Part shown: in pieces, positions 743-60,037 of the stretch
How positions within the stretch are numbered: position 1 is the first letter of the stretch
Layout: every line of letters starts with the position of its first letter
Source: Hymenobacter baengnokdamensis
Lineage (GTDB): Bacteria; Bacteroidota; Bacteroidia; Cytophagales; Hymenobacteraceae
DNA length: 64,000 bases
Direction: 5' to 3'
Assembly (NCBI RefSeq): GCF_008728635.1
Contig: NZ_CP044285.1
Location: 186,001-250,000 of the forward strand
Notes under the pieces: generated by a model
Seen by the model: only the letters and a program-made list of their open reading frames with translations
The model's database searches: none
What the model was told of the DNA's origin: nothing
Program-made: the position numbers and the translations under genes

Positions 743-3328
743 CTAGCTGGCCAGCACCTGCGAGCGGGCGGCCCCGGCCCGGCCTACGGGCTCAGCGGCA
801 GGCACGGCGCGGGCAGCCCGGCGCTGACGCATGCTCAGCACCAGGCCAAAGCCCATGAGCAGCGTGCCGCCCCAGAGCAGGTTGATAAAGGGCTTTTCGG
901 TGGCCTTCAAAATGATGTAATCTTTGCCGGTAGTGCTGATGGCAAAGGTGAACTTACCCTTAACGGGGTCAATCTGGTCGAGGGTGAGGCGCAGGCCCAG
1001 GTCCTCGATAATCTCGGGCACGCGGCCCACCTGGCGGTCGCGCAGCAAGAATATAGGGTGCGCGTGATATTGCCGCCCCTTCTCGCCGGTGATAATCATG
1101 TCGGCCTGCAAGGCAATGTCGCCGGTTTGCAGCTTAATGCCGGGCACCTCGTGCGCCTGCTCGATGGCACGGAACACGGCGAAGTAGTCGTTCAAGAACA
1201 GCGTATCGCCCACGCTGAGCTCGTGCGGAATGGCCGGGCTCCACGGAATCTCCTTGCGCGGGTCGGGCACGGAGGAGATGTGCGAGTAGATGTCGTGGTC
1301 CCAGAAGCGCTGCAGAGCGGGCGAGGCCAGCAGGCCACCCATCTCCTCATTTACCTGGGCGCGGGGGTAGAGCGTAAATTTCTGCCCGGTCTTCTTGTCG
1401 TTGTACTCGACGCGGTAATAGGTGTTTTCGGGGCGAATCGTGAGCGTATCACCGGTGTGGTAAAACGTTTTGTCGCCCTGCTTAATTTCGCCCCGCGCCA
1501 CGGCCTTATACTCGTCATCGGTGCGGTACAGCAGCTGAGTGTTTACGTAGTCGGGCACGCCGGGCACGTCGAGGTACTGGCCGGTGTAGGTTACGTCGTA
1601 GCCATTCATCAGGCCGGTTTCGTTGCGCCACAGCAGCACGTTGTTTTCATTGTCTTGGTCGTTCATCTCACGCGAGATGAGCTTGCCGCTCATGTTGCGC
1701 GAAATCACGTTGGAGTAACCCGCCGAGGCCAGAATGCCCAGCAGCATCAGGGCAATGCCCAGGTGGGCAACGGCCCCGCCCGAAAGCGTAATACCACGAC
1801 GCCACAGCCCGAAGAGCGTGCCGGCATTGGTCATGATGCCAAACAGCCCCGCCAGCAGCAGCACCACGTAGGGCGCCGACATGGTATGGCCGAAATAGCG
1901 GGTCAGCAGCACCACCAGCGCCGTGGTGAGCAGCGCCAGCATGGTCGGCGTAGCCAGGGCATTGATAACCGACTCCTTGGTGTTGCGCCACCACAGCACC
2001 TGCGCCACGCCCGAGAGCAGGCCAATCAGCACGCCGGCCCACAGCTGAATGCGGGTGTAGTGCTGAATCTGGTCGGCGGGCAGCGCTAAGTTAGATTTAA
2101 TACCGATAAAGCCCAGAAAGGCATTATAAACCGGGATACTGGTAGTAGCCACTACCTGGAAAGCGGCCAGACAGAGGACCGTAGCTCCCAGAAACACCCA
2201 CAGCTCGGGGCTATAGGCCGTCAGCTCTTTCTCCGAAACCGGGATGCTCTTCCAGCGGGCCGCCAGCAAGGCAATGGCGCCCACCGCGAAGAAAGCCAGG
2301 TAGATAATCAGCTGGCCCGACAGGCCCAGGTCGGTAAAGGAGTGCACCGAGGCATTGCCCAGCACGCCGCTGCGCGTCAGGAATGTAGCGTAGAGAATGA
2401 GTACGAACGTGGCAATTACCAGCGTATAAGCAGTGCGCAGGCCGATGCGCCGCCGCTGCCACAGCACCATTCCGTGCAAAGCCGCGATGAGTACAAGCCA
2501 CGGAATATAGACGGCATTTTCTACGGGGTCCCAGTTCCAGAAGCCGCCGAAGTTCAGGGTTTCGTAGGCCCAGTAGGCTCCCATCATAATACCGATACCC
2601 AATACCGCGCCGCCGAAGGCGGTCCAGGGCAGGGCGGGCTTTACCCAGCCTGTCAACTCCTTTTTCCAGAGGCCGGCAATAGCAAAGGCAAACGGCACCA
2701 GCGTGAGCGCAAAGCCCAGAAACAGCGTGGGCGGGTGAATTACCATCCAGTAGTTCTGGAGTAGGGGGTTGAGGCCCGAGCCGTCTTTGGGCACGAAGTT
2801 GGGGTTGATTTTCCAGACCGGCAGGTCTACCATAAAGTCACGCAGCAGGATAAACGGCGACGAGCCGATTTTTACGCCTCCCACCACTACGCCCAGAATC
2901 ATGCTTACCAGGAAGGCCTGCACCGTGGCAAACACGGCCAGCACGGGCGCTTCCCACTGGCGGTTGAATTTCATAATACCCAGGCCCAATACTACGTGCC
3001 AGAATATCCAGAGCAGAAAGCTTCCCTCCTGCCCTTCCCAGAAGCAGGAAATCATGAAGTGTACCGGCAGGTGGTTGCTGGAGTGCGACCAGGCGTAGTA
3101 GTACTCGTAGCGGTGCGTGTAGATGATGGTAAACAGGCAGGCGACTACCGCCAGCACGGCCGCGCCGTGCACAAAAAAAGCTCCGCGCGCCAGCCGCAGC
3201 CAGCTGCCCTCGGGCTGGCCCAGAGCCCGGCCCCGCGCCGCCTGAAAGTAGCCATAAGCGGCTACTGCCGCTGCCACGAACGCCAGAATTACACTGGCCT
3301 GACCAAGATTTCCAAGTACTAAATTCAC
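743..3328 (-). CDS. ccmF: Cytochrome c heme lyase subunit CcmF
   Basis: 861-residue polytopic membrane protein of the CcmF/CcsA family, which works with CcmE in ligating heme to apocytochrome c on the periplasmic face. The tryptophan-rich heme-handling motif appears as GGFWNWDPVENA about residue 260, with many hydrophobic helices around it and a long periplasmic region between about residues 560 and 790 before the last helix. The frame could extend to 3397, but a GTG at 3328 lies 19 nt after a TAccTTTG box (3355-3348), and the peptide after it (NLVLGNLGQASVILAFVAA) starts directly with the first membrane helix, so I prefer that start. It is separated from the other ccm genes by a two-component system on both strands. 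Confidence 0.9.
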   Translation of the reverse strand: MNLVLGNLGQASVILAFVAAAVAAYGYFQAARGRALGQPEGSWLRLARGAFFVHGAAVLAVVACLFTIIYTHRYEYYYAWSHSSNHLPVHFMISCFWEGQEGSFLLWIFWHVVLGLGIMKFNRQWEAPVLAVFATVQAFLVSMILGVVVGGVKIGSSPFILLRDFMVDLPVWKINPNFVPKDGSGLNPLLQNYWMVIHPPTLFLGFALTLVPFAFAIAGLWKKELTGWVKPALPWTAFGGAVLGIGIMMGAYWAYETLNFGGFWNWDPVENAVYIPWLVLIAALHGMVLWQRRRIGLRTAYTLVIATFVLILYATFLTRSGVLGNASVHSFTDLGLSGQLIIYLAFFAVGAIALLAARWKSIPVSEKELTAYSPELWVFLGATVLCLAAFQVVATTSIPVYNAFLGFIGIKSNLALPADQIQHYTRIQLWAGVLIGLLSGVAQVLWWRNTKESVINALATPTMLALLTTALVVLLTRYFGHTMSAPYVVLLLAGLFGIMTNAGTLFGLWRRGITLSGGAVAHLGIALMLLGILASAGYSNVISRNMSGKLISREMNDQDNENNVLLWRNETGLMNGYDVTYTGQYLDVPGVPDYVNTQLLYRTDDEYKAVARGEIKQGDKTFYHTGDTLTIRPENTYYRVEYNDKKTGQKFTLYPRAQVNEEMGGLLASPALQRFWDHDIYSHISSVPDPRKEIPWSPAIPHELSVGDTLFLNDYFAVFRAIEQAHEVPGIKLQTGDIALQADMIITGEKGRQYHAHPIFLLRDRQVGRVPEIIEDLGLRLTLDQIDPVKGKFTFAISTTGKDYIILKATEKPFINLLWGGTLLMGFGLVLSMRQRRAARAVPAAEPVGRAGAARSQVLAS

Positions 3329-3347
3329 GGGCAAGCTGTTTTTTCTA

Positions 3348-3355
3348 CAAAGGTA
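3348..3355 (-). promoter_or_regulatory. -7 box upstream of ccmF
   Basis: TACCTTTG read on the minus strand matches the Bacteroidota sigma factor -7 consensus TAnnTTTG. It lies 19 nt before the chosen GTG start. No good -33 element was seen at the usual spacing. Confidence 0.6.
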
Positions 3356-3441
3356 CCGCCCAAAGGGCAGGGCGGGGCGCGGCGACCAGTGTGGCAACGA
3401 CCAACCGACCAGCTTTTTTGTTTACCTTCAACACCGGTTGA

Positions 3442-15945: not shown

Positions 15946-18900
15946 ATGCGAAACCTTTTCTCGATGCTGCTGCTGGGAATACTGGTGGGCTTTACCGTGC
16001 CAGCGTATGCCCAGGCGGGCGGCCCGGCGCAGGTAGTGCCCGTTAGCCTCAGCTGGACCACCTACGCCAGCCTGCCCAACCCGCGGGCCAACGCCGACGA
16101 TGCTCCGCGCCGCGTACCTAGCTTTAAGGGCGCTTATCATGGGCCCGGTGCCGTGGTGGGCACCTACACGCTGCGCCTGGCCGGCACCATCGGCAGTGGT
16201 GAGCTGCGCGATGCCGTGTACGAAGCCTTTCCGGCCGCTGATGTCAAGCTGCTGGGCAATACTACCTTACCCGCCGCGCCGGCCGTGCAGCTGCGCTACG
16301 GCACCGAGGCCCGCCGCCCATACACCTACGTGCTGATTCAGCCCGTGCGCCGCAACCCGCAAACCGGCCAGGCCGAGCGCCTGCTGTCGTTTTCCTACGC
16401 CGGCCAGGCTACCGGCAGCAGCGCGGCCGCCCGCTCCACGGCGGGCCGGGCCCACGTCAGCACGTCGGTGCTGAGTAAGGGCGACTGGTTTAAAATCGGC
16501 GTGCCGCACAATGGCGTTTATAAGCTCGATAAGGCGACGCTCAAAAGCCTGGGCCTGCCCGTAGCCACCCTGGACCCACGCCGTATCCAGCTCTTTGGCA
16601 ACGCCATCGGGCTGCTGCCCCAGGCCAACTCTGCGCCCCGCCCCGACGACCTGGCCGAAAACAACCTGCTGTTTGTAGGCAATGGAGATGGCGTATTCGA
16701 TGACGGCGAATACTTTCTGTTCTATGCCAGAGGGCCGCATACCTGGCGGGCCAGCCAGCCGGGGGCTATCGCGCTTGCCGCCGACCCTACCCGGCCCGGC
16801 TTGTTCGGGCTGCTGGGCGAAGGCGGGCGCTTCAAGCACATCAACAACTTTTACTGCGACACGGCCTACTACTTTGTGACGGTGGGCAACCAAAACGGGC
16901 GGCGTATTCCAACGGTAGCTGCCCCCGGCAGAGCGCCGCAGGGAGCACCCATCACGACGTTTCTGGACCGCCGCTTCTACGAGCATGACCTCGTCAACCT
17001 TCTACACTCGGGCCGCCGCTGGCTGGGCGAAGCTTTTACGAGCAGCAACCCCCAGCGCGACTTCGTTTTCAGTGGCGACGGCAACCAGCCGCTGGCCGAC
17101 CTGGTAGCCGGCGATACCCTGCGCCTGACCGTAGCCACGGCCAATACCGCTTTGCAAAACAGCAGCTTCGATGTGGCGCTTAACGGTGCCAAGCTGGGTA
17201 GTCAGTCGCTGCCCGGCATCCCCAACGGCTCGTTTACGGCCGTGGCTACCAACGATTTTCACACCTTTACCACCCTCACCCCGGCCGGCCTCACCGACCC
17301 CAAGGTGACGCTGACTTTTTCCTCGTACGATGCGGCCGGCACCGGCTACCTCGACTACCTGGAGCTGGTGGTGAAGCGCCAGCTGCGCCTCAGCGGCTCT
17401 TACCTGGAGTTTAACTCGCTCAACTACAAGCGGGGGGCCGGCACCGTAGGCACCTTCACGGTAGCCAATACCAGCCCCGGCACTCAGGTGTGGGAAGTAA
17501 CCAACCCGCGCCAGCCGCAGGCGCAGACCCTGGACGCCAGCGGCAGCTTTCTGGCCTACACCGACTCGCTGCGCGAGTTTATAGCCGTGCAGCCCAGCGG
17601 CACCTTCGATGCGCCCCGGCTGTTTGGCAAAATTCCGAATCAGAACCTGCACGCGCTCAACAGCGATGGCAAGCTGAATCTGGTGATTGTAACCTACCCG
17701 CCCTTCCAGGCGCAGGCGGAGCGGCTGGCCCAGCACCGCCGCGACTACAACGGCCTGAATGTGGCCGTGGTAACCACCAAGCAGGTGTACAACGAATATA
17801 GCTCGGGTGGGCAGGACGCCACCGCCATCCGCGACCTGATGAAGCAGGTGTACGACCGCAACCCCGACCCGGTAGGCAACCGCGGCTACCTGCTGCTGTT
17901 TGGCGATGCTTCGTTCGACTATAAGTCGTCGCCCTACAACGATGCCAGCCAGCAGCCCGCCTGGTGGGCGACCCGCGCACCCTTCAAAACCACTTCCAAC
18001 TTCAACGCGGCTAACCAAGACTTCGTGCCTACCTACGAGTCGCGCGAATCGTTTCAGCCGGTGGACAACTTCAGTAGTAGCCGTGACAATATTGAGGGGC
18101 TAAACAGCTATTCATCAGAAGACTACTATGGCTTGCTCGACGATAGCGAGGGCGAGTGGATAGAGGCTAACGTGGGCAATTTCGAAGCCACCGACATCGG
18201 CATCGGGCGCCTGCCCGTGCGGACGCCCATCAACGACCGGGCTAATACGGCTCAGGCCCAGCAGGTGGTAGATAAGCTCATTGCCTACGACTCGCCGGCC
18301 AGCTTTGGCAAGTGGCGCAATCGCATCACCCTCACGGCCGACGATACGGACGCGGAAAAAACGAACGAGTTTGCCTTCGATTCGGAAACGATTTTTGCCC
18401 CCACTATCAGCTCCAGCGAGCCGGCCTACAACCTGCGGAAGGATTATCTTGACCTGTTTCCGCAGGTAAGCGTAGCGGCCGGCCAGCGCTCGCCGGCCGC
18501 CGTGGCCGCCATCGACGAAGCACTGGAGCAGGGTTCGCTGCTCATCGGCTATACCGGCCACGGCGGGCCGCGCGGCCTGGCCGATGAGCAGATTATCACG
18601 ATTCCTTCGCTGCTGGCGCTCAATAACCAGAACCGCCTTACTTTCTTCGTAACCGGCACCTGCGACCTGAGCACCTACGACAACCCCGACTTTACTTCGG
18701 CGGGCGAGCAGGTGCTTACCGATAATGCCACGGGGGGCGCAGTCGGGCTATTTACCACTACCCGCGTAGTCTATTCAAATTTTAATACGGAAGTTGTTAA
18801 TAATTTTTACACCCAGGTGTTAACCCGCAATGCAGCGGGCACCCTGCCCTATCTGGGCCTGGCGGCCAGCACTGCCAAAAACAATTCGCCCGGCGGCGAC

Positions 18901-20079
18901 CTTAACAACCGCAACTATACTCTGCTCGCCGACCCTACTACCCGCCTGGCCTACCCTGGCCAGCGCGTGGTACTCGATTCTATCAATGGCCACCACGTGC
19001 AAACAATTACGACCAGCCTCGACACGCTGCAGGCCCTTGGCCAGATGCGCCTGAGCGGTCACATCGAAAACAATGGCGTGCTGAACCCCGGCTTCGGCGG
19101 CACGGCCGACATCACTATTTTCGACAAGCCCATAACGGTGCAGACCCTGGGTGATGCAGGCTCCCCTAAAATTGATGTGCAGACGCAGGAAAACGTAATT
19201 TATGGCGGGCAGGCCACCGTACGGGCCGGCCGCTTCTCCGTTAAGTTTGTGGTGCCCAAAGACATTGCCTATAACGTGGGTAAAGGTAAAATCAGCCTGT
19301 ACGCCGCCGACCTCGTCAACAAAGTAGATGCCCAGGGGTATCAGCTGGCCCTGGTGGGCGGGGCCGCGCACGGGGCCACCAGCGATACCCGGCCGCCGCT
19401 GGTTCACTTGTTTATTTCTACCTCAGCCCTGCCCAACGATACGTCCTTTGTATCGGGCGCCACTGCTACCCCAAACCCGCTGCTCATTGCCCGGCTCAAG
19501 GACGCATCGGGCATCAACACGTCGAGCGCGGGCATCGGGCACGATATCACCCTCACGCTCGACAACGACCCCACCAAGCTGGTAGTGGTAAACGATGCCT
19601 ATACTACCGATGTCGACAACTTCCGCACCGGCCTGGTGCGCTACCTCTACAAAGACCTGGCGCCCGGCCCCCATACTATTCGCCTCAAGGCCTGGGATAC
19701 GCACAATAATTCGGCCGAAGGCACAGTTGACTTCCTCGTTGCGCAATCGGCGCAGCTGGCCCTCGACCACGTCTTAAACTATCCCAACCCTTTCAGCAAC
19801 ATCACAACCTTCCACTTCGACCAGACCCGCGCGGGCTCCGAGCTGGATGTGCAGGTGCAGATATTTACCATAGCCGGCCGCCTCGTCAAAACCCTGCACG
19901 CCAGCTTTCCGTCCAGCACGGCCCATATCCCCAGCACTCACCAGGACCCCAGCCTGAGCTGGGACGGCCGCGACGACTACAACGACCAGCTGGCGCGGGG
20001 CGTGTACGTGTACCGGGTCAGCGTCCGCTCGGGCGACCAGGTAGCTACGAAGTTTGAAAAGCTGGTGCTATTAAATTAG
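15946..20079 (+). CDS. porU: Type IX secretion system sortase PorU
   Basis: 1377 residues. After a signal peptide (MLLLGILVGFTVPAYAQ) comes a long beta-rich region, then a gingipain-type C25 peptidase domain from about residue 575 (LNLVIVTYPPFQAQAERLAQ). The catalytic pair is visible: His872 in GYTGHGGPRG and Cys906 in TGTCDLSTYDNP. The C-terminus carries a T9SS-like domain (NYPNPFSNITTFHFDQ, then ARGVYVYRVSVRSG). PorU cleaves the sorting domain of T9SS cargo at the cell surface and attaches the cargo to lipopolysaccharide in the species studied. It is followed by porV, the usual order in Bacteroidota; the two proteins act in one outer-membrane complex. Confidence 0.95.
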   Translation: MRNLFSMLLLGILVGFTVPAYAQAGGPAQVVPVSLSWTTYASLPNPRANADDAPRRVPSFKGAYHGPGAVVGTYTLRLAGTIGSGELRDAVYEAFPAADVKLLGNTTLPAAPAVQLRYGTEARRPYTYVLIQPVRRNPQTGQAERLLSFSYAGQATGSSAAARSTAGRAHVSTSVLSKGDWFKIGVPHNGVYKLDKATLKSLGLPVATLDPRRIQLFGNAIGLLPQANSAPRPDDLAENNLLFVGNGDGVFDDGEYFLFYARGPHTWRASQPGAIALAADPTRPGLFGLLGEGGRFKHINNFYCDTAYYFVTVGNQNGRRIPTVAAPGRAPQGAPITTFLDRRFYEHDLVNLLHSGRRWLGEAFTSSNPQRDFVFSGDGNQPLADLVAGDTLRLTVATANTALQNSSFDVALNGAKLGSQSLPGIPNGSFTAVATNDFHTFTTLTPAGLTDPKVTLTFSSYDAAGTGYLDYLELVVKRQLRLSGSYLEFNSLNYKRGAGTVGTFTVANTSPGTQVWEVTNPRQPQAQTLDASGSFLAYTDSLREFIAVQPSGTFDAPRLFGKIPNQNLHALNSDGKLNLVIVTYPPFQAQAERLAQHRRDYNGLNVAVVTTKQVYNEYSSGGQDATAIRDLMKQVYDRNPDPVGNRGYLLLFGDASFDYKSSPYNDASQQPAWWATRAPFKTTSNFNAANQDFVPTYESRESFQPVDNFSSSRDNIEGLNSYSSEDYYGLLDDSEGEWIEANVGNFEATDIGIGRLPVRTPINDRANTAQAQQVVDKLIAYDSPASFGKWRNRITLTADDTDAEKTNEFAFDSETIFAPTISSSEPAYNLRKDYLDLFPQVSVAAGQRSPAAVAAIDEALEQGSLLIGYTGHGGPRGLADEQIITIPSLLALNNQNRLTFFVTGTCDLSTYDNPDFTSAGEQVLTDNATGGAVGLFTTTRVVYSNFNTEVVNNFYTQVLTRNAAGTLPYLGLAASTAKNNSPGGDLNNRNYTLLADPTTRLAYPGQRVVLDSINGHHVQTITTSLDTLQALGQMRLSGHIENNGVLNPGFGGTADITIFDKPITVQTLGDAGSPKIDVQTQENVIYGGQATVRAGRFSVKFVVPKDIAYNVGKGKISLYAADLVNKVDAQGYQLALVGGAAHGATSDTRPPLVHLFISTSALPNDTSFVSGATATPNPLLIARLKDASGINTSSAGIGHDITLTLDNDPTKLVVVNDAYTTDVDNFRTGLVRYLYKDLAPGPHTIRLKAWDTHNNSAEGTVDFLVAQSAQLALDHVLNYPNPFSNITTFHFDQTRAGSELDVQVQIFTIAGRLVKTLHASFPSSTAHIPSTHQDPSLSWDGRDDYNDQLARGVYVYRVSVRSGDQVATKFEKLVLLN

Positions 20080-20207
20080 ATTTATACTATATAATGAATT
20101 TTTAATTTAATAGCTCCTTCGTGTTGAGTAAGAATAACCTTCTTTCTTTGCAACGTTTTCAGTGACGCTTGTATTCTTACATTCAGAGTAGCACTTTACT
20201 AAATCCT

Positions 20208-21434
20208 ATGACTTTTTTTCGTACGCTGGGCTTTACGCCGGCGCTCTTGCTGCTGGCCGCCCCCGCGGCGCTGGCGCAAGTAGCCACTGCCGACCTGCAC
20301 ACCATCACCACAGCAGTGCCCATCCTGACGCTGAGCCCCGATGCGCGCGGCGCGGCGCTGGGCGATGCCGGCGTGGCGACCTCGCCCGATGCCAACGCAG
20401 CCTTTTACAACCCCGGCAAGCTGGGCTTTGTAAATTACAAGTATGCCTTTTCGCCGTCGTATTCGCCCTGGCTGCGCCAGATTACCGACGACATGAGCCT
20501 GAGCTACCTGTCGGGCTACGGCAAGGTGGGCGACCGGGGCGCTATATCGGCCTCGCTGCTTTACTTCAACCTCGGTAATATCGACTACCGCGACTTCCAG
20601 AACCTGCCCAACGGTAATTTCAACCCCAAGGAGTATGCCTTTACGGTATCGTATGGCCAGAAGCTGGGAGAAAACTTCGGCGTAGGCGTGTCGGCACGCT
20701 ACGTGCGCTCCAACATCATCGGCTCGTTTCCGGGCGGGGGCGATGCCCAGCCGGGCAGCTCATTTGCGGCCGACCTGGGCGCTTATTACAGCAAGGATGC
20801 CACCATTGGCACGGGCGTGTATAACCTGGCCTTTGGCCTGGCGGTCACCAATATTGGCAACAAGATGGTGTACCGGGATGCGACCAACCCCAGCTTTCTG
20901 CCCACTCAGCTGCGCCTGGGCACGGCCATTACCCGCGAAATAGACTCCTACAATAAGATAACGCTGGCCTTCGACGCAACCAAGCTGCTGGTGCCCTCGC
21001 CCTACTACGAAACCCCCAATAGCAAAGACACTGCCCAGACAGCCCGGGTGCAGCGCATAGACCGCGAACGCCAGCAGCAGGGCATTGTTTCGGGTATCTT
21101 CAGCTCGTTTAACGACGCGCCGGGCGGCTTTAAAGGAGAGCTTCAGGAAATTAACCTGCACGGCGGCATGGAATACTGGTACGACAATAAGATTGCGGCC
21201 CGCGTCGGCTATTTTTACGAAAACCCACATACCGGCGCCCGCCAGTACCTGAGCTTCGGCCTGGGCGCGCAGTTGTCGGTATTTGGCGTCGATGGCACGT
21301 ACCTGGTGCCCAACTCGCAGGCCAACCCATTGGCGCAGACCATCCGCGTATCGCTGCACTTCAACCTCAACAAGCTGGCCGATGCCTTTGATGAGAAAGG
21401 CGCGGGTGGCACGCAGGGCACGCTGCCCAACTAA
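20208..21434 (+). CDS. porV: Type IX secretion system outer-membrane protein PorV
   Basis: 408 residues from ATG 20208, which is followed by a clean signal peptide (LLLLAAPAALAQ). The frame is open back to 20169, but that codon is TTG and the extra residues lengthen the signal without purpose. The mature start TAVPILTLSPDARGAALGDAGVATSPDANAAFYNP is the PorV/LptO hallmark of a FadL-like barrel. PorV binds cargo sorting domains and shuttles them from the translocon to PorU. It lies 128 bp after porU, behind an AT-rich gap that may hold its own promoter. Confidence 0.95.
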   Translation: MTFFRTLGFTPALLLLAAPAALAQVATADLHTITTAVPILTLSPDARGAALGDAGVATSPDANAAFYNPGKLGFVNYKYAFSPSYSPWLRQITDDMSLSYLSGYGKVGDRGAISASLLYFNLGNIDYRDFQNLPNGNFNPKEYAFTVSYGQKLGENFGVGVSARYVRSNIIGSFPGGGDAQPGSSFAADLGAYYSKDATIGTGVYNLAFGLAVTNIGNKMVYRDATNPSFLPTQLRLGTAITREIDSYNKITLAFDATKLLVPSPYYETPNSKDTAQTARVQRIDRERQQQGIVSGIFSSFNDAPGGFKGELQEINLHGGMEYWYDNKIAARVGYFYENPHTGARQYLSFGLGAQLSVFGVDGTYLVPNSQANPLAQTIRVSLHFNLNKLADAFDEKGAGGTQGTLPN

Positions 21435-22974: not shown

Positions 22975-23916
22975 CTACCGACTCAGGTTAGGAATGCGGA
23001 ACTGAAGGCCCAGCGAAGGAATAAACGTGACCCCACTGAGCGAGGTAGTGCTGCCGTCGAGCAGAGTGAAATCGCCGTAATTCTGATAGTACAGGCTGAG
23101 GGCGGGCACTACGTACACGTATTTATAGCCGAGCTTGAGGTTGAGAAACAGGCCATAGGACGAAAAATTGCGGCTCTGCCGGGGCAGGGCGGGTAATCTG
23201 GAACCACCGGTGGCGTTGTACAAATTGCTAGGGGTGAAGCCATAGCTCACCCACGAGTGCGCGTACACCGCGCCGTAGCTAATAGCGCCAATGCTTTCCT
23301 CCGGCCCGAATGACTGGCTCACCGTGAGCGGAATCAGCACATCGTGGCGCGAGGCCGAGATACCCAGCAGGTTATTGACGTCCGTCAGGAATGACAGATT
23401 GGGCAGGGCCGCCCGCTGAATGGCATACTGCAAGCCAATGCTGGCATATGTGGTACCGCCGGCCGCGTCCCGGTCAGGGTTTTCGACCGAGCCCGTGGGG
23501 CCGAGCAGCTGATACTGGGTGTCGAAGACGTGCGAGCCAAAGGCATACTTATAGCCCACATCGAGGCGCGGCACCACCCCATAGCGAATGCTGAGGTCGG
23601 CCGTGGGCTGCAAAGGGTCGAGCAGGTAGGCCAGGGCCGCCGTCTGCAGGTTGCTTACCGCCCCCGAGTAGCGCACGGTATCGCCACGGGCCGCCTGATT
23701 ACCCAGCTGGCTGGCAGCCGTTTTTACCGCCGAGCCGGCCTTGCTGAGCGGGGCCGAGCCCACGTTAAACCCTTGGTTGTAGGCCAGCCGAAACTCACCC
23801 TGGGGCGTGACCTTGCCCGAGGTAGTGATGCCACGCGGCGCAGTACAGGCCGTAGCCGCCAGGGCCAGCAAAGCGGCAGCCCGGCCCAGTGGAAAAGAAG
23901 CAGCAGAAATACACAT
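22975..23916 (-). CDS. Putative outer-membrane lipoprotein, beta-rich
   Basis: 313 residues from ATG 23916. The N-terminus (FPLGRAAALLALAATACTAP) is a lipoprotein signal with Cys after ATA. The frame is open to 23970, but the longer start moves the signal far inside. The mature part alternates short amphipathic strands rich in Tyr, Gly and Ser (DLSIRYGVVPRLDVGYKYAF, LNLKLGYKYVYVVPALSLYY, FIPSLGLQFRIPNLSR), which suggests a beta-barrel or barrel-like sheet. I do not recognise the family. It diverges from the redoxin gene with about 130 bp between them. Confidence 0.65.
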   Translation of the reverse strand: MCISAASFPLGRAAALLALAATACTAPRGITTSGKVTPQGEFRLAYNQGFNVGSAPLSKAGSAVKTAASQLGNQAARGDTVRYSGAVSNLQTAALAYLLDPLQPTADLSIRYGVVPRLDVGYKYAFGSHVFDTQYQLLGPTGSVENPDRDAAGGTTYASIGLQYAIQRAALPNLSFLTDVNNLLGISASRHDVLIPLTVSQSFGPEESIGAISYGAVYAHSWVSYGFTPSNLYNATGGSRLPALPRQSRNFSSYGLFLNLKLGYKYVYVVPALSLYYQNYGDFTLLDGSTTSLSGVTFIPSLGLQFRIPNLSR

Positions 23917-24046
23917 AAGCAGAAAGAGTGTGGAAGCGACGTGTACGGCCCAATACGAAAACCGGGCCAACCCGGAACCCCAGTCCGCTGGCTGGTGTCT
24001 GGGCTAGCACCACCTTACTCTGACGGGCCATCGGCCACTTTCCGCG

Positions 24047-24586
24047 ATGAGGCTACTTTTTCCTGGCAAACTACTCTTGCTACTCGGGCTGGGCATGCTG
24101 GCCGGAGCCAGCCGCCCCGCCGCGCCGCGCCTACCCGTCACGGTATATGTTTTTCTGGCCGAAAGCTGCCCCATCAGCCAGCAGGCAACGCTGCCGCTGC
24201 GGGCGCTTTATGCCCGCTACGCCCCGCTGGGGGCGCAGTTCGTGGGCGTATTTCCGGGGGCGGGGGCTACCGCGGCCAGCGTAGCGGCTTTTGCCCGCAC
24301 CTATACGGTGCCGTTTACTACGCAGCCCGACCCCGGCCAGGCACTGGCGCAGCGCCTGGGGGCGCGCATCACGCCGGAAGCAGTGGTAGTAGCCGCCGAC
24401 CAGCATACCATCCTTTACCAAGGCCGGCTCGACGACCAGTATGCCGCCCTGGGCCAGCGCCGCACCCTAAGCCAGCACCACGAGCTGGCCGATGCCCTGG
24501 CCGACCTGGCGGCGGGCCGCGCCGTAGCCGTGCCGCACACCCAGGCGGTGGGCTGCTACATCGAAAAAGCCGGGCTGGGTCAGTAA
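24047..24586 (+). CDS. Exported thioredoxin-fold protein (redoxin)
   Basis: 179 residues with a signal peptide (LLLLLGLGMLAGASRPAA). The mature part VTVYVFLAESCPISQQATLPLRAL is the start of a thioredoxin/peroxiredoxin fold with a single Cys (SCPIS) instead of CxxC. A cis-Pro segment follows (ARITPEAVVVAADQHTILYQGRLDDQY). A second Cys lies near the end (VGCYIEK). Similar domains are found fused to, or next to, copper monooxygenase-like proteins in other bacteria. Its neighbour 64 bp downstream is such a protein, so a joint role in copper or thiol redox handling is inferred. Confidence 0.8.
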   Translation: MRLLFPGKLLLLLGLGMLAGASRPAAPRLPVTVYVFLAESCPISQQATLPLRALYARYAPLGAQFVGVFPGAGATAASVAAFARTYTVPFTTQPDPGQALAQRLGARITPEAVVVAADQHTILYQGRLDDQYAALGQRRTLSQHHELADALADLAAGRAVAVPHTQAVGCYIEKAGLGQ

Positions 24587-24650
24587 AAAAGGCTAAACAG
24601 GGCCGGTTATTATTTCTTAATTTTCAGATAATCAAGTATTACGCAGTATT

Positions 24651-26234
24651 ATGAGAAGATTTTTCTTACTATTCCTCCTTTTAGCGGGTTTTATGCGGCC
24701 CGGCCGCGCTCAGGCCCAGGCTACCCAGCTAAATTTCAGCGAGCACATAGCCCCTATTATCTATTCACACTGCGCCCGTTGCCACCGGCCGGGCGAGGTG
24801 GCACCGTTCTCACTGCTGAGCTACCAGGACGTGGTCAGCCACGGCACCACCGTTATGGCCGTTACGGGCTCGGGCTACATGCCGCCCTGGAAGCCCGACC
24901 CCAACTACCGCCACTACCTTGACGAAAATACTCTCTCTACCACGGAGATAGCCAGCATCCGGAGCTGGGTAACCAGCGGCATGCCCCAGGGCAACCCGGC
25001 CCTGGCGCCGGCCGTGCCAACCTTCCCCAGCGGCTCGCAGCTCGGCACCCCCGACCTGGTAGTGCCAATGCGCCAGACCTTTACGGTACCGGGCACCAAC
25101 CAAGACCTGTACCGGGTGTTTGTGCTGCCGGTTACTATATCTGCCGACCACGATATTGCCGCCGTGGAGTTTCGGCCCGGCAACAAGCGGCTGGTGCACC
25201 ACGCCATCATCGGCCTCGACACCACCAGCCAGGGCGAGCAGCGCGATGCCCAGGACCCCGGCTACGGCTACACCAGCTTCGGCGGCTTCGGGTTTACCAC
25301 CGTGGAAGACAACTTTGCCGGCTGGGTGCCGGGCAATCAGGCGCGCTTTTATCCGGCGGGCATGGGCAAAAAGCTGTATCGCCATGCCCGCCTGCTGGTG
25401 CAGGTGCACTACGGCCCCACGAGCGTGGCCCAAACCGACTCGTCGGTTATCAACATCTTTTACAGCCGCCAGCCGGTGCAGCGCTACGTAGCCACGCAGC
25501 CCGTTATTACGCCCTTCTGGGGCCTTACCAACGGCCCGTTTGTCATTCCGGCCGGCCAGGTCAAGACCTTTCACTACACCTTCGGCGTGTCGCAGGATGT
25601 AAGCCTGCTTTCCGTGCTGCCCCATTCGCACCTGCTGGGTAAAAGCTGGAAGGTATGGGCCATCAAGCCCAGCGGCGACACCATCAAGCTCTTGAAAATC
25701 AACGACTGGAATTTTCGCTGGCAGGGCAACTATCGCTTCCCGACCATGCAGTACATTCCGGCCGGCTCGCGCCTGGAGGCCGATGTTACCTACGACAACA
25801 CGACCAGCAACCCCAACCAGCCCAACTTGCCCCCGAAAACCGTGACCTGGGGCGAAAATACCAGCGACGAGATGATGGTCGGCTTCTTCGACCTGGTGCC
25901 CTACCAGCCCGGCGACGAAGCCGTGGCCCTGGCCACTCGCTCGGCCGTGCCCGTGGGCAATGCCGCCGGGGCCGAAAGCGACTTCCTGCTCCACCCCAAC
26001 CCGGCCGAGCTGGGGGCGGCCACCGCCAGCTTTACCTTGCTCCAGGCTGGCCCCGTCAGCCTGCGCATCCTCGATGAGAAAGGCCGCCTGGTACGCAACG
26101 TGCTTACGCAGCAGACGCAGCCCGCCGGCCCGCGCCAAGTGCCGCTACCGCTGCAAAATCTGCCCGCCGGCCTCTACCTGGTGCAGCTCGAAGCCAGCGG
26201 CAGCACCCGCACCGGCAAGCTGCTTATTCAGTAG
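24651..26234 (+). CDS. Heme c / copper type II monooxygenase-like protein with T9SS sorting domain
   Basis: 527 residues. Signal peptide to about residue 22; c-type heme motif C41-A-R-C44-H45 with possible axial Met77 (YMPPWKP); then a domain like peptidylglycine hydroxylating and dopamine beta monooxygenases. All six copper ligands of that family have counterparts: H183-H184 (VHHAI) and H253 (VHYGP) for one site, H325 and H327 (PHSHLLG) and M408 or M409 (DEMMVGF) for the other. Residues about 445-527 are a type A T9SS sorting domain (LHPNPAELG, VSLRILDEKGRLV, AGLYLVQLEASG). The heme could supply electrons in place of ascorbate. The substrate is unknown. Confidence 0.85.
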   Translation: MRRFFLLFLLLAGFMRPGRAQAQATQLNFSEHIAPIIYSHCARCHRPGEVAPFSLLSYQDVVSHGTTVMAVTGSGYMPPWKPDPNYRHYLDENTLSTTEIASIRSWVTSGMPQGNPALAPAVPTFPSGSQLGTPDLVVPMRQTFTVPGTNQDLYRVFVLPVTISADHDIAAVEFRPGNKRLVHHAIIGLDTTSQGEQRDAQDPGYGYTSFGGFGFTTVEDNFAGWVPGNQARFYPAGMGKKLYRHARLLVQVHYGPTSVAQTDSSVINIFYSRQPVQRYVATQPVITPFWGLTNGPFVIPAGQVKTFHYTFGVSQDVSLLSVLPHSHLLGKSWKVWAIKPSGDTIKLLKINDWNFRWQGNYRFPTMQYIPAGSRLEADVTYDNTTSNPNQPNLPPKTVTWGENTSDEMMVGFFDLVPYQPGDEAVALATRSAVPVGNAAGAESDFLLHPNPAELGAATASFTLLQAGPVSLRILDEKGRLVRNVLTQQTQPAGPRQVPLPLQNLPAGLYLVQLEASGSTRTGKLLIQ

Positions 26235-58441: not shown

Positions 58442-60037
58442 ATGAAATCCGCACAAAATCAGGCTGTTTACGATGTCATCATTGCCGGAGCCGGGCCAGT
58501 AGGGCTGTTTCTGGCCTGCGAGTTGGCTTTGGCCAACTGCTCGGTGCTGGTGCTGGAAAAGGCCCCGAGCCCGCACTCGCCCCTAAAGCAGCTGCCGTTT
58601 GGGCTGCGGGGGCTCAATGCGCCGTCCGTTGAGGCGCTTTTTCGCCGGGGGCTGCTCGACGAGCTGGAGGTGTCGAAGCGCATCGGCTTCCCGCACAACC
58701 CCTCCCCGGCCAGCCAAACGCCTAAGCCCCAGACAGGTGGTCATTTCGCCGGCATTGCGTTTTCGGGCAGCACCATTGATATCTCCCAGTGGAAATACCG
58801 CCTGCCCAGCTCGACGAGCACCCAGCTTTTATCTGAGATAGAAGAGCTTGAAACCGTATTGGCGCGCCGGGCAGCGGCCTTGGGGGTGGTAATCAAGCGC
58901 GGGCGGGCCATTGCCGGCTTGCAGCAAACCCCGGACGGGGTGACTGTGCAGGCGGGTGATGCCTGCTTCGAGGCTGGCTGGCTGGTGGGCTGCGACGGGG
59001 GCCGGAGCGCAGTGCGCAAAGCAGCTGGCTTCGATTTTGCCGGCACGGAGCCCGAATTTACCGGCTACACCGCGCAGGTTGACCTGGCCGACCCCGAGAA
59101 GCTCAAGCCAGGCCGCAACGTAACCCCGACCGGCATGTACATGCAGTCGCAGCCCGGCTACCTGATACTGCAGGATTTTGATGCGGGCACCTTTCACCAG
59201 GCCCAGCAGCCCGTTACGCTGGAGCACCTGCAGCACCTGCTGCGCCGGGTTTCCGATACTGATGTGACTATTCAGGCCCTGCACCTGGCCACCACCTGGA
59301 CCGACCGCGCCCGGCAGGCCACTACCTACCGCCGCGGCCGGGTGCTGCTGGCCGGCGATGCGGCCCACATTCATGCGCCCTTGGGCGGCCAGGGGCTCAA
59401 CCTGGGGCTAGGCGATGCCCTGAACCTGGGCTGGAAGCTTGCTGCCACCATCCACGGGACAGCGCCGGCAGGCTTGCTCGACAGCTACCACACCGAGCGG
59501 CATCCTATCGGGGCGCAGGTGCTGGATTGGTCACGCGCTCAGGTGGCCATTATGAGGCCCGACCCCCATGCCCGCGCGCTGCACGCCATTGTGCGCGACC
59601 TGCTGCATACCCGCGACGGAGCGACTTATTTTGCCGGGCGCATATGGGGCATTTCCACGCACTACGAGCTGGGCAGCGCCCATCCGCTGGTCGGCCACAG
59701 CGCGCCCAACTTTGAGTTTGAAACCGGCACCACCCTTGGCGAGCTCATGCGCGAGGGCCACGGCATGTTGCTCGATTTCGAGGATAACGCTTCCCTGAAA
59801 GCATGCGTGAGTGCTTACGACGGCCAACTAACCTACATCTTAGGCCGCGCCAAGGACCAGCTAGGCATAAGCGCCGCCCTCATACGCCCCGATGGGTTTG
59901 TGGCTTGGGCTGCCGACCGCGACCCCGATTACACCGAGCTTGAGCGGGCGGCGGCCCGCTGGTTTGCGGGCAATTTGGCAAGCAGCGCAGTAGTAAAAGC
60001 GGCCGGTTCGGCAAGCTCTGCGCCGTCGGCATCGTAA
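58442..60037 (+). CDS. FAD-dependent monooxygenase, aromatic hydroxylase type
   Basis: 531 residues. FAD site: YDVIIAGAGPVGLFLACELALANCSVLVLEK; the conserved GCDGGRSAVRKAAG; and RVLLAGDAAHIHAPLGGQGLNLGLGDALNLGWKLA. The C-terminal 120 residues are a thioredoxin-like extension common in the PheA/TfdB/Rox group, with no CxxC. Enzymes of this group hydroxylate phenols, polyketide antibiotics or rifamycins with NAD(P)H. The substrate cannot be told. An AraC-type regulator precedes it, as is common for inducible detoxification genes. Confidence 0.88.
   Translation: MKSAQNQAVYDVIIAGAGPVGLFLACELALANCSVLVLEKAPSPHSPLKQLPFGLRGLNAPSVEALFRRGLLDELEVSKRIGFPHNPSPASQTPKPQTGGHFAGIAFSGSTIDISQWKYRLPSSTSTQLLSEIEELETVLARRAAALGVVIKRGRAIAGLQQTPDGVTVQAGDACFEAGWLVGCDGGRSAVRKAAGFDFAGTEPEFTGYTAQVDLADPEKLKPGRNVTPTGMYMQSQPGYLILQDFDAGTFHQAQQPVTLEHLQHLLRRVSDTDVTIQALHLATTWTDRARQATTYRRGRVLLAGDAAHIHAPLGGQGLNLGLGDALNLGWKLAATIHGTAPAGLLDSYHTERHPIGAQVLDWSRAQVAIMRPDPHARALHAIVRDLLHTRDGATYFAGRIWGISTHYELGSAHPLVGHSAPNFEFETGTTLGELMREGHGMLLDFEDNASLKACVSAYDGQLTYILGRAKDQLGISAALIRPDGFVAWAADRDPDYTELERAAARWFAGNLASSAVVKAAGSASSAPSAS

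Follow-up and report, generated by a model that had tools for sequence, protein, structure and literature searches.

A predicted heme c-bearing dicopper protein of the PHM/DBM type and its redoxin partner in Hymenobacter baengnokdamensis

In the 64,000-nucleotide stretch of the Hymenobacter baengnokdamensis genome analysed here (contig NZ_CP044285.1, positions 186,001 to 250,000; hereafter the window), the gene of a secreted redoxin (24047-24586) is followed, after a gap of 64 bp, by an open reading frame (ORF) of 527 amino acids (24651-26234). The product of the latter comprises, in this order, a signal-like N-terminus, a domain with a CXXCH motif, a region matching Cu2_monoox_C and a C-terminal tail of the type IX secretion system (T9SS). 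A preliminary description of this DNA had placed both ORFs and their spacing correctly. The copper/heme protein shows the PHM/DBM fold with the ligand positions of both copper sites in place, a heme c motif and a T9SS sorting tail, and proteins of this kind are frequently paired with, or fused to, a redoxin. On balance, we lean slightly towards the view that it is a bacterial type II dicopper monooxygenase that carries heme c and is exported to the cell surface, where the heme would serve as electron entry, while the redoxin would assemble or maintain the enzyme in the periplasm. What we infer is the occupancy by heme and metal, monooxygenase activity, electron flow from heme to copper, the cellular location and the particular job of the redoxin. 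Among the listed matches, the closest named locus belongs to Hymenobacter sp. BRD67 (98% identity over the best segment). All genome and locus sets used below are best-match samples, in which related genomes are counted repeatedly.

Copper, heme and sorting features of the 527-residue protein

The double jelly-roll fold of PHM is supported by Foldseek and VIA matches to PHM and DBH. DBH was also found by sequence with a profile of the copper domain (E 9.6e-8) and PHM by fold alone, while a PDB sequence search and a profile built with the whole protein retrieved neither of them and returned chiefly T9SS tails. Residues H183, H184 and H253 align to the CuH ligands H262, H263 and H333 of DBH, and H325 and H327 to its CuM ligands H412 and H414, the comparison being one of positions only. 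These histidines and M408 are each present in 121 of 121 sequences of a "split" set, composed of the query and the best 120 of at least 2012 homologs at E<=0.001, and the same six positions are invariant in 51 diverse copper domains (the window's and those of 50 loci selected to be diverse, including one fusion). The six ligand positions thus stand as first described, and the choice formerly left between M408 and M409 can be narrowed: since M408 is invariant whereas M409 is replaced by L, F or Y in most of the 121 sequences, M408 is the likely CuM ligand. In line with this notion, the C-terminal end offset in VIA would put M408 on the methionine ligand of PHM, M314, in 16 of 25 PHM rows; in the other 9 it would fall two residues away. 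Of the structural support sought at the outset, fold and ligand order were borne out, in a model that is metal-free. The protein would be expected to bind both heme and copper.

At the level of domain models, Cu2_monoox_C scores 19.9 bits in the window protein, under the Pfam gathering cut-off of 23. Of 50 aligned sequences, 40 match it at E<=0.01, and several relatives bear its label, whereas the N-terminal Cu2_monoox domain is absent from the window protein's matches at E<=1. The only cysteines of the protein are the heme pair C41 and C44, leaving none for disulfides of the PHM/DBH type.

Shared fold and ligands could point to a bacterial peptidylglycine amidating enzyme, that is, to PHM proper, and the position of PHM Tyr318 is occupied by Tyr in 95 of 121 split sequences and in 91 of 120 single-chain fused relatives (described below), with Phe412 in the window. 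However, Arg240 and Asn316 of PHM, the anchors of the glycine carboxylate, would correspond to Leu323 and Val410, and neither Arg at 323 nor Asn at 410 occurs in any of the 121 split or 120 fused sequences. Peptide amidation is therefore unlikely, peptidyl-glycine is an improbable substrate and, with no lyase-like neighbour seen to recur either, we regard this identity as very improbable. A surface electron sink or copper-handling protein that has kept the PHM fold with no oxygenase function would agree with the fact that no substrate clue was seen in the gene neighbourhood and that no activity is known. Nonetheless, the full CuM set, methionine included, is strictly kept together with Gln251 (121 of 121 split and 119 of 120 fused sequences), which presumably sits at the place of PHM Gln170. 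This conservation suggests catalysis and makes a non-catalytic role unlikely.

With regard to the heme c domain, the motif at C41, C44 and H45 was likewise confirmed and is present in all 118 ungapped rows of the query and 120 homologs (3 rows gapped). M77, within an MPPW motif, is found in all 119 ungapped rows of the same alignment (2 gapped) and is a candidate distal heme ligand. Foldseek gave no significant match with the heme domain. The window had also been credited with Ccm functions for heme loading; it does encode one Cytochrom_C_asm protein of the CcmF/CcsA type (884 amino acids, 743-3397 on the minus strand), the one found among the window proteins scanned.

The T9SS tail, in turn, proved well founded as an export signal. 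It exceeds the cut-off of NCBIfam TIGR04183 (28.6 vs 23), just misses that of the Pfam T9SS model (25.8 vs 27) and is matched at E<=0.01 in 48 of 50 aligned copper proteins, the window's included, with CTD matches too. As in T9SS type A cargo, the sorting domain is accompanied by the machinery in the genome, and the previously reported PorU and PorV are indeed in the window. The PorU sortase and PorV genes are adjacent (15946-21434), at a distance of some 3 kb from the gene with the T9SS tail.

The redoxin and its linkage to the copper gene

The redoxin scores above the Pfam cut-offs for both AhpC-TSA and Redoxin, and its PDB relatives 2cvb, 2ywi and 3u5r align at both the CP and the GCxI motifs. 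It had been taken for a single-cysteine protein, a view that must be abandoned: besides C41 it has the distant C170, and both are conserved in 120 of 120 close homologs and invariant in a diverse alignment of 43 rows. The window sequence CPIS departs from the CxxC of thioredoxin and ResA-type proteins, and among 84 domain hits (duplicate loci included) the motif reads CxxC in 45, CxxS in 35, CxxT in 2 and CxxV in 1, with 1 gapped. His144 and His145, considered as copper-binding residues, were rejected, as they are kept in 112 and 119 of 120 close homologs but not in wider sets.

Membership of the AhpC-TSA family, together with an analogy to lytic copper enzymes, raises the prospect of a peroxygenase in which the copper site would use H2O2 instead of O2 and electrons, redoxin and heme tuning peroxide or keeping copper reduced. 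Yet the redoxin does not carry PxxxT/SxxC, the typical peroxidatic motif of peroxiredoxins: the -3 position is Ala38, and Ala in 116 of 120 close homologs. As both copper sites are retained, moreover, although a peroxide route would make this superfluous, we consider such a chemistry quite improbable.

Linkage was examined in the best 80 of at least 584 matched stretches, corresponding to 79 distinct loci, 2 of which were excluded because the copper-domain match was too short; gene order was counted on domain boundaries. A redoxin lies within 1200 nucleotides of the copper gene, always on the same strand, in 63 of the 77 remaining loci (48 upstream, 15 downstream), and of the 14 loci without one, 5 have a flank shorter than 300 nucleotides on one side (L080, L085, L098, L103 and L126). 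In a second set of 29 non-duplicate loci, from which the length filter excluded the fusion L025, a nearby redoxin was found in 15 of 28 (14 on the same strand, 1 on the opposite). The other 13 showed none at E<=1 in flanks of up to 7-8 kb per side, or less at contig ends. Genome-wide, six of these 13 have a strong but unlinked redoxin (E 2e-43 or better; G166, G301, G293, G190, G101 and G105), G206 has one beside its other copper gene, and six have weaker relatives only, at 1e-20 or weaker (G192, G136, G027, G144, G113 and G041). The expected conservation of the gene pair therefore holds as a common arrangement, reinforced by the fusions, but not as a universal one.

A copper gene of this kind occurs at E<=1e-20 in 13 of 120 genomes of a family-level sample. 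With the full-length query, 17 of 198 genomes have a listed best E below 1e-40; a full-length tally of 126 of 198 was discarded, as the query had chiefly picked up T9SS tails. Setting aside clusters mostly on other frames or the other strand of the copper gene, no other ORF family (at least 110 amino acids) recurs in more than 9 of the 79 loci, and the clusters that reach nine are the nine Hymenobacter loci, which is plain synteny. The divergent ORF upstream of the redoxin (22975-23970), for which Pfam gave nothing at E<=1e-5, resembles by eye one such cluster in the flanks of those loci.

Variations on the arrangement were also seen. Five Flavobacteriales loci (L087, L093, L094, L095 and L097) have two copper proteins around one redoxin, in the order copper-redoxin-copper on one strand, and L109 has two copper proteins as well, with the redoxin downstream. 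Loci L017, L050, L051 and L052 carry a second, tail-less copper-protein subfamily from the same bacterial family, with 36-40% identity to the query and no nearby redoxin.

Single-chain fusions and a proposed route to the cell surface

The fusion L025 (P0241 of Aegicerativicinus sediminis) combines a redoxin with a heme part and a copper part in a single protein of 599 amino acids. Among the best 120 of at least 2913 relatives of P0241 at E<=0.001, most redoxin columns are filled in all 120 and the redoxin Pfam label is borne by 117, while CXXCH, M77 and the six copper ligands are kept in 120 of 120. The redoxin C41 is present in 118 of 118 ungapped rows (2 gapped) and C170 in 114 of 120; the cis-Pro position is Ala in 105 of 120 and the motif is mostly Cxx-Val. 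No T9SS Pfam label appears on any of these 120 listed relatives. Of 43 separate redoxins, not all of them partners of tailed proteins, none matches the T9SS tail.

Taken together, these observations suggest that exported enzymes tend to have a separate redoxin and non-exported ones, often, a fused one. Tailed loci with a redoxin amount to 63 of 79; among tail-less loci with enough flank, a separate redoxin is present in 4 of 9 and absent in 5 of 9, which counts against a clean rule. Such a tendency, along with the tail-less nature of the redoxin, suggests that the latter would act in the periplasm, prior to export of the enzyme.

These findings allow us to propose a route in which the protein would cross the inner membrane and acquire covalently bound heme and both of its coppers in the periplasm, after which T9SS would take it to the cell surface. 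There, O2 would be activated at the CuM site (H325, H327, M408), with the second electron supplied from the CuH site (H183, H184, H253), and the heme c domain would take up electrons from an external donor to refill the coppers, in the role of ascorbate in animals. This domain stands where DBH has its DOMON domain and would be the natural point of electron entry. The redoxin, having no T9SS tail, would be left behind in the periplasm and work through its C41/C170 pair, most likely in assembling or maintaining the enzyme by copper(I) delivery or by thiol reduction for heme and copper loading; many relatives that lack the T9SS tail have it as a permanent fusion. Given this tail-less partner, the earlier idea of a self-contained enzyme is doubtful.

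The main rival to an assembly role is that of catalytic donor, in which the C41/C170 dithiol would directly reduce heme or copper, heme and redoxin jointly standing in for ascorbate. The permanent single-chain fusions, with both cysteines largely retained, argue for it, as does the close same-strand pairing. Against it, the sorting tail of the copper protein alone leads one to expect different compartments in tailed systems, a strong redoxin is missing from some genomes that do encode the copper protein, and cis-Pro is mostly lost in the fused redoxins. A donor function is hence possible but doubtful, and we retain assembly or maintenance as the preferred role. More broadly, and rather tentatively, there may be a large and hitherto unstudied bacterial branch of PHM/DBM-type monooxygenases with its own reductase chain of redoxin, heme c and two coppers, contained in a single protein or divided between a surface enzyme and its partner in the periplasm, and made independent of ascorbate by a heme c relay that would be new for this enzyme class.

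Table 1. Coordinates of the redoxin, the copper/heme protein and their predicted features within the window.
Feature	Position	Strand	Basis
Redoxin, 179 aa, secreted, AhpC-TSA/Redoxin family; C41-P-I-S, T109-P110-E111, G169-C170	24047..24586	+	Pfam above cut-off, PDB relatives, conservation
Redoxin C41 (CPIS motif)	24167..24169	+	120/120 close homologs; invariant in 43 diverse rows
Redoxin C170 of GCxI, the other conserved cysteine	24554..24556	+	120/120 close homologs; invariant in 43 diverse rows; 114/120 fused relatives
Copper/heme protein, 527 aa, with heme c, PHM-like and T9SS tail parts	24651..26234	+	ORF, Pfam/NCBIfam, conservation, fold matches
Probable signal peptide, residues 1-22	24651..24716	+	Hydrophobic N-terminus in the sequence
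c-type cytochrome domain, residues 24-118	24720..25004	+	
Heme c attachment motif C41-A-R-C44-H45	24771..24785	+	118/118 ungapped rows; 120/120 fused relatives
M77 of MPPW, candidate distal heme ligand (putative role)	24879..24881	+	119/119 ungapped rows; 120/120 fused relatives
PHM/DBM-like dicopper domain, residues 132-424	25044..25922	+	Fold matches to PHM/DBH (Foldseek, VIA); DBH found by profile, E 9.6e-8
CuH (CuA) ligands H183, H184	25197..25202	+	Aligned with DBH H262/H263; invariant
CuH ligand H253	25407..25409	+	Aligned with DBH H333; invariant
CuM (CuB) ligands H325 and H327 (H-S-H)	25623..25631	+	Aligned with DBH H412/H414; invariant
CuM ligand M408 (likely)	25872..25874	+	VIA end offset vs PHM M314 (16/25 PHM rows); invariant
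T9SS type A sorting domain, residues 448-527	25992..26231	+	

Elsewhere in the window, 58442-60037 encodes a flavin adenine dinucleotide (FAD) aromatic-ring hydroxylase (FAD_binding_3 and Rng_hyd_C), which bears no relation to the copper/heme finding.

Significance and comparison with known enzymes

In animals, copper domains of this type belong to the enzymes that complete peptide hormones and to those that produce noradrenaline. If our proposal holds true, the relatives of the one fused member, at least 2913 in number, would be accessible enzymes for heme spectroscopy, which could follow the arrival of electrons at two distant coppers and their passage between them. It would also point to an unexplored extracellular oxidation chemistry in Bacteroidota.

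The constituent domains are already recognised, since database labels of members name them ('redoxin domain-containing protein', 'mono/diheme cytochrome c family protein', 'ascorbate-dependent monooxygenase'). No study of the redoxin/heme c/copper architecture was found in the open PMC literature, judged by titles and abstract openings and with subscription papers outside the scope. The redoxin resembles 2cvb, 2ywi and 3u5r through the CP and the C-terminal GCxI motifs, proteins that are themselves named merely probable isomerase/thioredoxin, hypothetical or uncharacterized. The monoheme cytochrome PccH (4rlr), unlike the window protein, is devoid of a copper domain. The redoxin-cytochrome c-copper fusions ('redoxin family protein', such as P0241) share with the window pair the same three parts, the copper ligands and the heme motif, and differ in being one polypeptide with Cxx-Val, Ala at cis-Pro and no T9SS label among those listed. 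According to PMC3197665, the copper domains of PHM and DBH contain disulfides and those of DBH are preceded by a DOMON domain, at whose place the window protein has a c-type cytochrome domain. Compared with PHM, it has in addition an N-terminal heme c domain, a T9SS tail and a redoxin partner, while the disulfide cysteines and the peptide-carboxylate anchor residues are missing.
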